Positions 87 to 29,550 of a stretch of DNA of 35,533 nt are shown piece by piece. Each line of letters opens with the position of its first letter. Position 1 is the stretch's first letter. Both the position numbers and the translations under genes were made by a program. Under the pieces are notes generated by a model. That model worked only from the letters and a program-made list of their open reading frames with translations. It did no database searches and was not told the origin of the DNA. Source of the DNA: Methanocorpusculum sp. (lineage in GTDB: Archaea; Halobacteriota; Methanomicrobia; Methanomicrobiales; Methanocorpusculaceae); NCBI GenBank assembly GCA_030539655.1, contig JAUNXT010000007.1:1-35533 (forward strand). The letters run 5' to 3'.

Positions 87-3000
87 ATGGCGAACAAAAC
101 AACAGTACTTGAGGAACTTCGCGGAAGGCTTCTTGACCTCTCATTAAGAAACAATCTGTTAAACTATCATGTACAGGCTGCGCGGTCAATCGAAATCACC
201 GGCTCGCATGTAAGTGAAGTGTACAGCACCTTAGTCCAGAAAGAAAAGACAATGAAGTTTCAGCCCGGGGAAAACAGCAAAGATACTGCATCCCCGGAAG
301 AAAAAAATATCTGGAAATACCCGATCTTCTCCCGCGGCACAAAAAACACCGAACAGATACTCAATACCCTGTACAGTGACATAGAACTCAGAAAAAGACT
401 CTACTCCCTGCAGACAAAAAGCCGCACCGTCTTCGAAGAACAGGGATACCCGATACTCTACCTCGCCCTCGGATTCGTCGAATGGGATGACCCCGCAAAC
501 AAAGGACTAAAAGCCCCGCTCCTCCTCATACCTGTAGACTTAAACCGCAAAAACATCCGGGAAAACTATACGCTCTCCTGGTCCGGTGAAGACCCCGTGG
601 TATCTCCGTCGCTTGCCGCAAAGTTAGCCGAGGAAGGAATCTCCCTTCCTGAGTTCGGACACCCGGAAAGCCGCGAAGAGGCTGCTTCCTTCTTTGAAAC
701 AGTACAGACCCTCGTTGAGCAGAGGGGATGGAAACTCCTCCCCGGAATAATTCTTGACCTTTTCAGCTTCAAAAAATACGTCATGTACAAAGACCTCGAC
801 CCGGAAAGCTGGGGTGAAGGATTCTCCATCGAAGGAAGTCCCCTCATCAAAAGCATTTTCTCCGCCGACGAACACACGGCGCCTTCAGGTGACGGGGAGC
901 CGGTAAAAAGTCTTGACTTTTCAAACATCATGGATGCGGACTCCTCGCAGCTTGCAGTAATCGCCGAGGCAAAGACCGGAACAAACCTCGTGGTTGAAGG
1001 GCCCCCCGGTACCGGAAAGAGCCAGACGATTGCAAACATGATTGCAGAGATGCTCGCATCCGGCAAAAGTGTTCTTTTCGTCAGCGAAAAGATGGCAGCC
1101 CTGCAGGTTGTAAAGCGAAGACTTGACGCCGCAGGACTTTCCCGGTTCCTTTTGGAACTCCACAGCCAGAACGCAAAAAAGACCGACTTCCTGCATGAAC
1201 TCGAATCCTGTCTGATGATACCGTATGAGACCGGAGAGGCATCCCCTGATGCAGACACAAGGGCAAAAATCGAAACCCTGAGTTCAGACCTCTCCGGCTA
1301 CTGTGAGGAACTCAAAACCCCTGTCGGCGCCTGCGGATTTACTCCGTATGACCTCTTTGGAATCCGTGAACAGTACCGTTACGAGTTCGAGGAAAAACGC
1401 CGCACCGCTCTTCCTTACGCTCCTGTAGAGGATGCCGTTCATCTGACAGCAGACGGATACCGTGCGGCGGTTGCGGCACTCACCGATATCGTCTCGTATC
1501 TCCCGACGCTCCTCCACGAAGGAGAGACAATCTTCACCCACCCCTGGGCAGGCTCCTCCCCGGGACGCCTCCAGCCTGCAGAACGCGAGGAACTGCGGGC
1601 TCTTGCCGTCACGTTCAGAAACAACATGCAGGATGTAAACGCTCTCATTCAGAACACAGCGGCCTCTGCAGAACTTCCGTTCGTTCCCAAAAATGAGACA
1701 GGTCTTGTCATATTCACGGACACCTGCCGCGAGATAGGGAAAGCATACCCCATTACACGCGGGGTTCTGGAAAATCCCGCATGGCAGAACAAAGCGGCCG
1801 CAGAACAGCTGGTCTCCCGCACCGCAAAGAATCTTTTGATGAAGAGGACAGTGGATGAACTGTTCACCCCTGATATTGCGGCAAAGGATGTTTCAGCTCT
1901 TTATCAGGAGTACCTGAAAGTCAGCGGAAAAGGAGCACTGTCCCGCATCTTCTCCTCAAAGTACAAGGATGTAAGAGCCGAGGTCATGTCATGCCTCAGA
2001 AATCCGGATTTACCTGACGCGGAGATAAGAAACGGACTGCAGCAGGCAAAGATTTACTTCTCCGGACGCGAAGGATGGGATGCGGATAAGAAAGCCTGTG
2101 AGGAACTCTTTTCCCCGATCTGGAACGGGGATGACACGGACCCGGGTCTCCTGCAGGACTACATGAGATGGATTTACATCCTGCGTTCCTGGCTGCAGGA
2201 AGGGCGTATCACGTCCGCTACTGTTGACCGGCTGATTGCCGGAAAAACGGAAGGGTGCGCATCTGCCGCAGCTGAACTGAAGGAAAAATACGAAACCGCA
2301 ATGACGGCACGTTCAGACCTCATGGTACGTCTGCACATAACTGAAGAAAAGGAGCCTGAGTTTGAGGAGCTCCTTGCAGCCGCCGGGAAATGGGCCGACA
2401 GTATCGAGCGCATCGAAGCCTGGGGACGATTCCTCTCGTACACTGACGCTGCGAAAAACACTGCAGCCTGTCATACCGCAGAGTTGGTCCGGGCTGGAAA
2501 ACTGGATGCGGAGGGTATCATCCCCGCATTTGTTACAGGATACATCGACGACCTCTTAAAAGCGGCGTATGAGGAGCGTCCGCGGCTTGCACAGTTTGCA
2601 CAGATGCCGCACGAGCAAAAGATTGAGGCCTTCAAAGCCCTTGACCGCCGGATAATCAGCGAGAATGCAAAGCAGCTGTCGCGCAGGCTTTCAAAACAGA
2701 TGCCAGAACTTTTCGCAGGAGCATCCCGCGAATCCGAGATGGGAATTCTTGCAGGTGAATTTAACCGCAAACGCGGCCACATGTCCATCCGCTCCCTGAT
2801 GACAAAGTGCGGCGGACTGATTCAGAAGATAAAGCCCTGCTTTATGATGAGCCCCTTGTCTGTTGCCCAGTATCTGGACCCGAGGTCGGTTACTTTTGAC
2901 ATTATTATCTTCGATGAGGCAAGTCAGGTCAAACCCGAAGACGCCCTGGGGGCACTCATGCGCGGAAGGCAGCTCGTGGTAATGGGTGATTCACGGCAGC

Positions 3001-27462: not shown

Positions 27463-28116
27463 ATGTCCTCCTCTCTTTTTCCCCGGATTCTCCTGTTCGG
27501 TGCAGGACTTTACATCATGGCACTGGGGGTATCCTTATCTGTTGCCGCAAACCTCGGGACATCGCCCATCTCCTGTCTTCCGTATGTTCTAAGCGTTGTG
27601 ACCTCGCTTTCCATGGGATTTATGACCTTTCTCATGAACATTGTTCTGATTATTTTACAGATGATAATTCTGAAGCGCGGATTTAAGGTCTGGTATCTCC
27701 TGCAGCTTCCCGGGCTTCTTGTCTTCAGTCTTTTCATCGACCTGAACAATATTCTTCTTGAAGGAGTTGTTCCGGACCTCTATGCGGTTCAGCTTCCGGT
27801 CATGCTCCTAAGCTGTGTTGTTCTTGCATTCGGTATTGCACTCCTGCTCAAAGCAGACCTCATCATGATGCCCGGTGATGCTCTTGCCCGGGCAATAACA
27901 CAGGTCAGCGGAAAAAAGTTCGGAGTTATCAAGGTCGCCCTCGATGTAACCCTCGTTGCCGTTGCGGCGGCAATCTCTCTTATCTTTCTGCAGGGAATTG
28001 TCGGAATCCGCGAGGGGTCTCTTGCAGCAGCGCTGAGTGTCGGATTTCTGGCAGGTCTTTTCAGAAAACTGCTCAGTCGTCGGGAACAGACGTATATCCG
28101 GTCCCGGGGCCGATAA
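27463..28116 (+). CDS. YczE/YitT-like membrane protein
   Basis: This 217-residue integral membrane protein has about five hydrophobic segments: residues 8-30, 42-65, 70-90, 103-125 and 150-190. The sequence ALGVSLSVAANLGTSPISCLPYVL is typical of the DUF6198/YczE group of small transporters or export helpers. Substrate unknown. The ATG at 27463 is preferred to an upstream TTG at 27454. It follows thyA by 18 bases and probably shares its message. Its last 44 bases overlap the convergent radC. Confidence 0.75.
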   Translation: MSSSLFPRILLFGAGLYIMALGVSLSVAANLGTSPISCLPYVLSVVTSLSMGFMTFLMNIVLIILQMIILKRGFKVWYLLQLPGLLVFSLFIDLNNILLEGVVPDLYAVQLPVMLLSCVVLAFGIALLLKADLIMMPGDALARAITQVSGKKFGVIKVALDVTLVAVAAAISLIFLQGIVGIREGSLAAALSVGFLAGLFRKLLSRREQTYIRSRGR

Positions 28117-28729
28117 TTAAATGGTCCAGAAGCGGGATTCCGAGAAGTTCCCCGCATCGCTTTATCTCCTGCGTCAGGTGAATGTCCTGGGGGCTTGCAA
28201 CAAGTCTTCCCGACGGGTGGTTGTGCACGAGGATAATTGCTGCCGCCCGCTCCGCAATGGCATCTGCAAAGATTTCCCGCGGATGTGCCTGGCAGTTGTC
28301 CAAGATACCGCGGGTAACAAGCCTGACACTGAGAACCTCGTTTGCCCCGGTTAGGGAGATGACAATCAGATTCTCCTGCTTTTCATACCGGTACTGGGCA
28401 ACAAACGGCAGAATATCCTTTGGTCCGGCAATTATCGCGCGACGCTCCTCCGGAGGTGGAAACCGCCGTGCAAGCTCAAGGGCTGCAATTATCTGGCATG
28501 CCTTTGCGGACCCCATGCCCAAAATATCCTGCAGATCCTCCACGGTTGTTTCATAGGTTTTCTTCTTCAGAATTTTTCCAACCTCACGTCCGATTTTTAT
28601 GGCATCATACCCCACTGTTCCTCTGCCGATAATTGCTGCAATCAGTTCCTGCAGTTCAAGGGCGGCAGCCCCGCGGGAGATGAGTTTCTCCCGTGGTTTG
28701 TCAACAGAGGGAAGATCTCTGAGTTCCAT
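28073..28729 (-). CDS. radC: RadC-family JAMM/MPN protein
   Basis: This 218-residue protein has the RadC layout: an N-terminal UPF0758-type helical domain with a helix-hairpin-helix-like LGMGSAKACQ (70-79), then a JAMM/MPN domain with HNH at 169-171, PSG and D182 completing the metal-binding motif HNHPSG-x7-D. The family was named for a repair phenotype but its biochemical role is still not settled. The ATG at 28729 gives the canonical start. Its 3' end overlaps the convergent membrane-protein gene by 44 bases. The A/T-rich stretch just upstream probably holds its TATA element. Confidence 0.9.
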   Translation of the reverse strand: MELRDLPSVDKPREKLISRGAAALELQELIAAIIGRGTVGYDAIKIGREVGKILKKKTYETTVEDLQDILGMGSAKACQIIAALELARRFPPPEERRAIIAGPKDILPFVAQYRYEKQENLIVISLTGANEVLSVRLVTRGILDNCQAHPREIFADAIAERAAAIILVHNHPSGRLVASPQDIHLTQEIKRCGELLGIPLLDHLIIGPGTGYTSVPDD

Positions 28730-28790
28730 TTATTATTTGTGTGTATTTTCTATTATTTAATTATTATTTATTGGTTTAATTTGCAAAAAT

Positions 28791-28819
28791 GGTGACAAAA
28801 TGTACATCTTTTTGGCACA
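28791..28819. promoter_or_regulatory. Repeated element, copy 1 (degenerate dyad)
   Basis: GGTGACAAAATGTACAT (28791-28807) is followed by TGGCACA at 28813-28819. It shares its left half with copy 2 but its right half is imperfect. It lies about 62 bases upstream of the radC start, next to the presumed radC promoter. Confidence 0.5.
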
Positions 28820-28874
28820 CATTTTTCACGAACCCCTTTCGCGGCCGGACTTTTTCCGGCAATATCCGGAATGT

Positions 28875-28902
28875 GGTGACAAAATGTCACCATTCTGGCA
28901 CA
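28875..28902. promoter_or_regulatory. Repeated element, copy 2 (perfect dyad)
   Basis: GGTGACA-AAA-TGTCACC (28875-28891) is a perfect 7+3+7 palindrome. TGGCACA follows at 28896-28902, with the same layout as copy 1 (21 instead of 22 bases from the element start). The two copies are 84 bases apart, which is about eight helical turns. Confidence 0.55.
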
Positions 28903-29049
28903 GGATATGATGCACGATGTGCCTTGTCCTGTCCGCGTGCCGGGTAAAATCTGCGCACCGCAAATCCGGATTGGCAGTTTTTCATGCGATTTTCAACTTC
29001 CTCATCCCAAAGGGTTTTAACTGCGTCTGCCCTATACTATAATGATATT

Positions 29050-29550
29050 ATGGACACAAAAGAATGTATTGCAGCAGCATTTGCCGGTGAATCACAGGCA
29101 AGAAACAAGTACAAGGCATTTTCAGAAGCAGCAGACGATGAGGGCTACGCCCAGGTTGCAAAACTCTTCCGTGCAGCATCCCTGGCAGAGGAAATTCACG
29201 CAAGAAGACTCATGCGTGTCGGCGGCATCGTCGGAAACACCGTTGCAAACCTTGAAGCAGGAAGAGCAGGCGAGCTTGAGGAGACAAACTCCATGTACCC
29301 GGCATTCATCGAAGTTGCCCAGAAAGAGGGCAGACAGGATGCCTTAATCACCTTCGAGCACGCAAAGAAGGCAGAGGCAGCACACGCAGACCTCTACGGA
29401 AAGGCACTTGAAGCAGTCAAGGCAGGAAAGGACATTGATGTCAAGACCGTCTACTTATGTCCGGTCTGCGGAAACATCGAGATTAACCACACCTCCGAGC
29501 GCTGCCCGATCTGCGGTATTCCCGGAACCTCATTCAAGGTTATTGAGTAA
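29050..29550 (+). CDS. rbr: Rubrerythrin
   Basis: This 166-residue non-haem diiron protein reduces hydrogen peroxide in anaerobes. The N-terminal four-helix bundle carries the expected Glu/His ligands (E14, E47/48 with H50, and later E109 with H112). The C-terminal rubredoxin-like module has Cys137, 140, 152 and 155 for one iron. The start at 29050 is the family start; an in-frame ATG at 28984 would add 22 residues that resemble translated leader. A TATA-like CTATACTATAATG lies immediately upstream. The two dyad elements 160-260 bases upstream could make it stress-regulated. A U-tract follows the stop at about 29559-29569. Confidence 0.95.
   Translation: MDTKECIAAAFAGESQARNKYKAFSEAADDEGYAQVAKLFRAASLAEEIHARRLMRVGGIVGNTVANLEAGRAGELEETNSMYPAFIEVAQKEGRQDALITFEHAKKAEAAHADLYGKALEAVKAGKDIDVKTVYLCPVCGNIEINHTSERCPICGIPGTSFKVIE

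Follow-up and report, generated by a model that had tools for sequence, protein, structure and literature searches.

Between the divergently oriented genes for a RadC protein and a rubrerythrin, the genome of a Methanocorpusculum sp. carries two short modules with the same internal layout. What are these modules, and which genes would they serve? A sequence-only reading had taken them for target sites of a shared oxidative-stress or DNA-damage regulator. We re-read the modules in the window (the whole stretch of 35,533 nucleotides that was analysed) and looked for further copies in the same genome and in its relatives.

Two modules between radC and rubrerythrin

Re-reading the sequence confirmed two modules whose starts are 84 bases apart, exactly where they had first been noted (Table 1). 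The core of module 1 is GGTGACAAAATGTACATCTTTTTGGCACA (28791-28819), in which outer inverted half-sites (28790-28797 and 28813-28819) enclose a central TGTACATC. Module 2 contains GGTGACAAAATGTCACC at 28875-28891, initially described as a perfect dyad of 17 bases; the dyad is indeed perfect, and it extends over 19 bp (TGGTGACA-AAA-TGTCACCA, 28874-28892). The heptamer TGGCACA, which follows at an offset of 22 in module 1 and of 21 in module 2 (third half-site, 28896-28902), had been listed as an element of its own. This parsing was mistaken: the heptamer is the opposite arm of a larger, outer dyad, TGGTGACA...TGKCACM, most clearly visible in module 1 as TGGTGACA-N15-TGGCACA. A 17-bp dyad with three mismatches allowed is found twice in the window against 1.28 expected and is not unusual; the full 29-base patterns m1 and m2 described below are far beyond chance. 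The hexamer TGTGCC on the 3' side of module 2 may be a chance match, since it is found 15 times on the plus strand of the window.

Table 1 Coordinates of the modules, of the neighbouring features in the window and of the membrane-peptide genes (prefix L, other loci)
Feature	Position	Strand	Remarks
radC	28073..28729	-	UPF0758 N-terminal and RadC JAB domains
Presumed radC promoter region	28730..28789	-	A+T-rich; TATA assigned by eye, congeners compared
Module 1 (m1 form)	28790..28820	+	TGGTGACA-AAA-TGTACATC-TTTT-TGGCACA(C); dyad centre ~28805; profile 47.4 bits, E 1.4e-12, top site overall
Inter-module spacer	28820..28873	none	Module centres 83.5 bp apart, ~8 helical turns
Module 2 (m2 form)	28874..28903	+	TGGTGACA-AAA-TGTCACCA-TTC-TGGCACA; outer dyad centre ~28888.5; profile 34.7 bits, E 1.4e-8
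TGTGCC, candidate extra inverted half-site	28918..28923	none	3' of module 2
Presumed rubrerythrin BRE/TATA	29008..29024	+	CCCAAAGGGTTTTAACT; assigned by eye; congener counterpart CCAAA-CTTTAT
Rubrerythrin gene	29050..29550	+	Rubrerythrin domain and weak rubredoxin-like match
Peptide gene	L169:301-405	+	
Peptide gene	L050:2459-2566	-	
Peptide gene	L069:66-170	+	
Peptide gene	L222:1501-1605	+	
Peptide gene	L220 ~1500-1600	-	

MsvR is a type of regulator that has been proposed for methanogen redox genes, and its boxes have the form TTCG...CGAA. Neither module contains TTCG or CGAA, in agreement with the earlier distinction of the motif from the MsvR type. The inter-module spacer contains an inverted repeat CGAA-N5-TTCG (CGAACCCCTTTCG, 28829-28841), the reverse order of the MsvR box.

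A dispersed palindrome family in two gut species

When the intergenic region was compared by BLAST with its own genome and 60 relatives, other copies of the module were found in the own genome (G000) and in that of Ca. Methanocorpusculum equi (G023). Both modules belong to one dispersed family of imperfect palindromes of ~30 bp, which exists in two interchangeable forms: m1, KGTGMCA-N3-TGTACATC-N4-TGGCACA, and m2, TGGTGACA-N3-TGTCACCA-N3-TGTCACC. A genus-wide search with the 29-base patterns and up to three mismatches returned nine m1 and six m2 sites, all in these two genomes, and no match in 23 congeners; the reversed patterns, used as a control, gave no match in the two genomes and one in another congener. 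All 15 can be aligned from end to end, m1 and m2 diverging around a single-base indel in the middle (ATGTACATC versus ATGTCACCA), and the palindromes are ~80% alike across copies. A profile built from them added one orthologous site per genome (C28 and C4), which brought the total to 17.

The sequence-only reading had made its case depend on further genomic copies and on conservation in relatives. Both were found, with eight sites at five loci in the own genome and nine at six loci in the sister species; both assemblies are incomplete (77% and 70%, respectively). All sites are intergenic, one of them overlapping the thiL stop codon. Among 199 genomes of the order, the 197 others gave a single chance-level match to the profile. 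As judged from these searches, the palindrome is restricted to two closely related gut Methanocorpusculum species.

Looser or more distant candidates were discarded. The generalised dyad TGGNGACA-N3-TGTCNCCA showed no clear enrichment across the genus outside the two species. The congener G019 has TGTCTCC...GGAGACA elements 83 bp apart in the corresponding intergenic region; they have no dispersed copies, and we took them as a coincidence. In viral contigs m1 was unmatched, and the short m2 dyad was matched 31 times, which we regarded as near chance. Rfam models matched neither the site loci nor the peptide cassettes described below, and a literature search found no description of the motif or of a matching methanogen regulator. 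An open reading frame at L050:3073-3673 appears to contain a stretch resembling a different dispersed repeat, GGCTCACGATTCGCTGCGCTCATCCCTC, which also occurs near the C42 site; repeats similar to it (CAGTCCTTCGGAC...) are found at scattered places in the intergenic DNA of both genomes.

Pair spacing and neighbouring genes

The sites are usually paired and near promoters, ~84 bases (eight helical turns) apart. The centre distances of five independent pairs are 83.5 bp (window), 83.5 bp (C42), 84.5 bp (C84), 84 bp (C160) and 73 bp (C132); at 10.5 bp per turn these correspond to 7.95, 7.95, 8.05, 8.0 and 6.95 turns, all of them integral. The orthologue of C160 in the own genome, C47, has a spacing of 83 bp. 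When spacings were simulated uniformly over 40-150 bp, a range of our own choice, four of five fell within 1 bp of each other with P ~1e-5. The spacers themselves are mutually unrelated except in the orthologous C47/C160 pair, and the window spacer has no similarity to those of non-orthologous pairs. Conserved sites at a conserved distance, separated by unrelated DNA, are what is expected of twin operators on one face of the helix.

REPINs and MITEs, too, are dispersed between genes as paired palindromes, and the family could represent such a mobile repeat, with palindromes ~85 bp apart being copied by a transposase and tolerated between genes. This would fit the multiple palindromic copies and the inverted relative orientation of three of the five pairs. 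Several contigs end near copies, and the stretches flanking C84, C46, C132 and C42 are not alignable between the two species, so that these copies may have been rearranged recently or be of mobile origin. However, copied elements should share their spacers, and here the spacers are unrelated and unconserved between copies even though the palindromes are so much alike. Moreover, single copies and direct pairs exist besides the inverted ones, and the position relative to promoters is fixed, two unrelated promoters having the site at the same distance from the start codon (see below). We therefore consider a mobile repeat rather unlikely. No transposase was noticed beside the copies.

The fixed position is best seen at two single sites. 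One precedes an archaeal type IV pilin gene (Pilin_N), which is followed by a gene for a large InlB-repeat protein; the other precedes the gene for a T2SSE pilus-type ATPase, after which comes a T2SSF gene. The two promoters are unrelated to each other. Each of them, in either species, has exactly 36 bp between the end of the outer half-site and the ATG, as counted on the printed sequence, and a TATA-like box, assigned by eye, directly follows the site. These two sites are retained wherever the genes are retained in the two species compared.

The C42 and C84 pairs lie at homologous positions upstream of paralogous, previously unannotated genes for hydrophobic peptides of 34-35 amino acids that resemble a single membrane span (MSSNFITLICMVVMTILQVVHSICELADRLNKKR). 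The two promoters align through the operator, where one has m1 and the other m2. The gene family is found in four Methanocorpusculum species: Ca. M. equi has a further paralogue, and homologues occur in G002 and G019. The paired operator lies upstream of the copies that belong to the own species and to Ca. M. equi. In members of the family, a conserved hairpin in the leader (CCGGA...ACCGG) is accompanied by a second, terminator-like one, and dN/dS values of ~0.21 and ~0.23 for two gene pairs argue for translation. Pfam gave no meaningful match to the peptide, and NCBIfam none at all. To judge from these sequence features, the gene is type-I-toxin-like in layout, and it may act in its own right as a small-protein gene or an element of the type-I-toxin kind.

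The C160/C47 pair, retained in both species, adjoins the position of a YhcG (DUF1016) nuclease gene close to orc1/cdc6. In Ca. M. equi (C160) the nuclease gene is present, and in the own genome (C47) only a stretch of its 3' end is kept. The C47 sites score 39.1 and 37.6 bits with the profile, compared to 46.5 and 44.3 bits for C160; the lower scores where the gene has been lost are suggestive of a link between site quality and gene, in this one case. One end of the stretch that is missing at C47 lies at or within ~50 bp of the palindrome pair. Finally, the C132 pair is found downstream of ndk, and the single site C46 upstream of a gene for a CAP-family protein. The neighbouring genes make no obvious functional set.

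Such functionally mixed surroundings, the dispersed phased pairs and the pair near orc1/cdc6 would suit a site for chromosome organisation (parS-like, or bound by replication or nucleoid proteins) in place of a gene-regulatory operator. Yet the sites abut promoters at fixed distances, and no other congener has the family, which is unexpected for a core chromosome function; we find this explanation quite improbable.

The same list of neighbours bears on the original proposal that one oxidative-stress or DNA-damage regulator controls radC and rubrerythrin together. It was suggested by the location of the modules between the two divergent genes. However, no stress genes accompany the other sites, which are found at pilin, pilus operon, membrane-peptide, YhcG nuclease and CAP-protein genes, and since radC-rubrerythrin is only one target among functionally mixed ones, a stress regulon is unsupported. 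Nothing among these other targets supports control by peroxide or DNA damage. Furthermore, the presumed TATA box of rubrerythrin is ~214 bp downstream of module 1 and ~130 bp downstream of module 2, and congeners, as well as some further genera of the order, retain the divergent gene pair without the module. The intergenic regions there are mostly shorter than that of the window; the assembly of Ca. M. equi, 70% complete, does not contain the locus. Control of the two genes by a stress regulator is thus hardly credible. What stands of the earlier interpretation is the shared motif with the character of a regulatory site.

Putative operators of a lineage-specific regulator

Considering this evidence together, we regard it as probable that the two modules of the window are twin operators, that is, binding sites of one sequence-specific transcription regulator. 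The family points to a gene regulator that has not been described, and not to an oxidative-stress one. The best reading of the sequence pattern is that the sites are operators of a lineage-specific regulator that would bind cooperatively in phased pairs. We infer protein binding and regulation, whether positive or negative, from the arrangement of the sites, and of the window genes radC would most likely respond, module 1 ending 60 bp upstream of its start codon beside the presumed promoter; rubrerythrin is the less likely target.

In the proposed mechanism, a single ~30-bp site comprises three half-sites: an inverted outer pair (TGKYGMCA / TGKCACM) separated by about two helical turns, and a central one placed a turn inwards. 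With ~eight turns (84 bp) between two such sites, interacting oligomers would occupy both from one face of the DNA, and the stretch between them would be looped or wrapped. Where a site abuts a TATA-like box, as at the pilin and pilus ATPase genes, the protein may act directly on the recruitment of TBP/TFB, as an activator or as a repressor.

The geometry is partly reminiscent of known operators. NikR operators consist of two inverted half-sites ~22 bp apart, and in this respect the outer inverted half-sites, 22-23 bp apart, resemble those of NikR and ribbon-helix-helix proteins; the central half-site and the twin sites 84 bp apart set the present family apart. No nickel-uptake or hydrogenase genes were seen among the neighbours inspected in these incomplete genomes. 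Archaeal operators of the Lrp/AsnC type, such as those of Ptr2 from M. jannaschii and Ss-LrpB from S. solfataricus, are clusters of imperfect dyads set at integral helical turns, with interacting dimers wrapping ~100 bp; at activated promoters, a site lies a few bp upstream of BRE/TATA (PMC2995911). The dyad beside BRE/TATA and the helically phased clusters are found here as well, so a mode of action like that of Lrp operators is conceivable, although Lrp sites are two or three turns apart (PMC2995911) and those described here eight or seven. Membership in the Lrp/AsnC group does not follow, because the only Lrp-family (PF01037) protein found in the own genome is orthologous to proteins of congeners without sites. 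With its range mismatching that of the sites, this protein is a poor candidate for the binder, a diverged specificity being possible; in the 70%-complete assembly of Ca. M. equi no Lrp-family protein was found. Among the window's open reading frames, judged from the starts of their translations and in part by Pfam, no regulator gene was recognised.

More tentatively, a new archaeal regulator that was re-specified or acquired in a single gut Methanocorpusculum lineage may use the twin operators to co-regulate surface pili, small membrane peptides with structured leaders, the YhcG nuclease and radC, a possible surface- or conflict-type regulon with DNA looping. To our knowledge, few operators have been defined in Methanomicrobiales. 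The family provides a 30-bp bait, a list of predicted targets and a rule on spacing (84 or 73 bp) that can be put to the test, and an operator that is present in only one lineage within the genus would allow the emergence of a new regulatory network to be watched.
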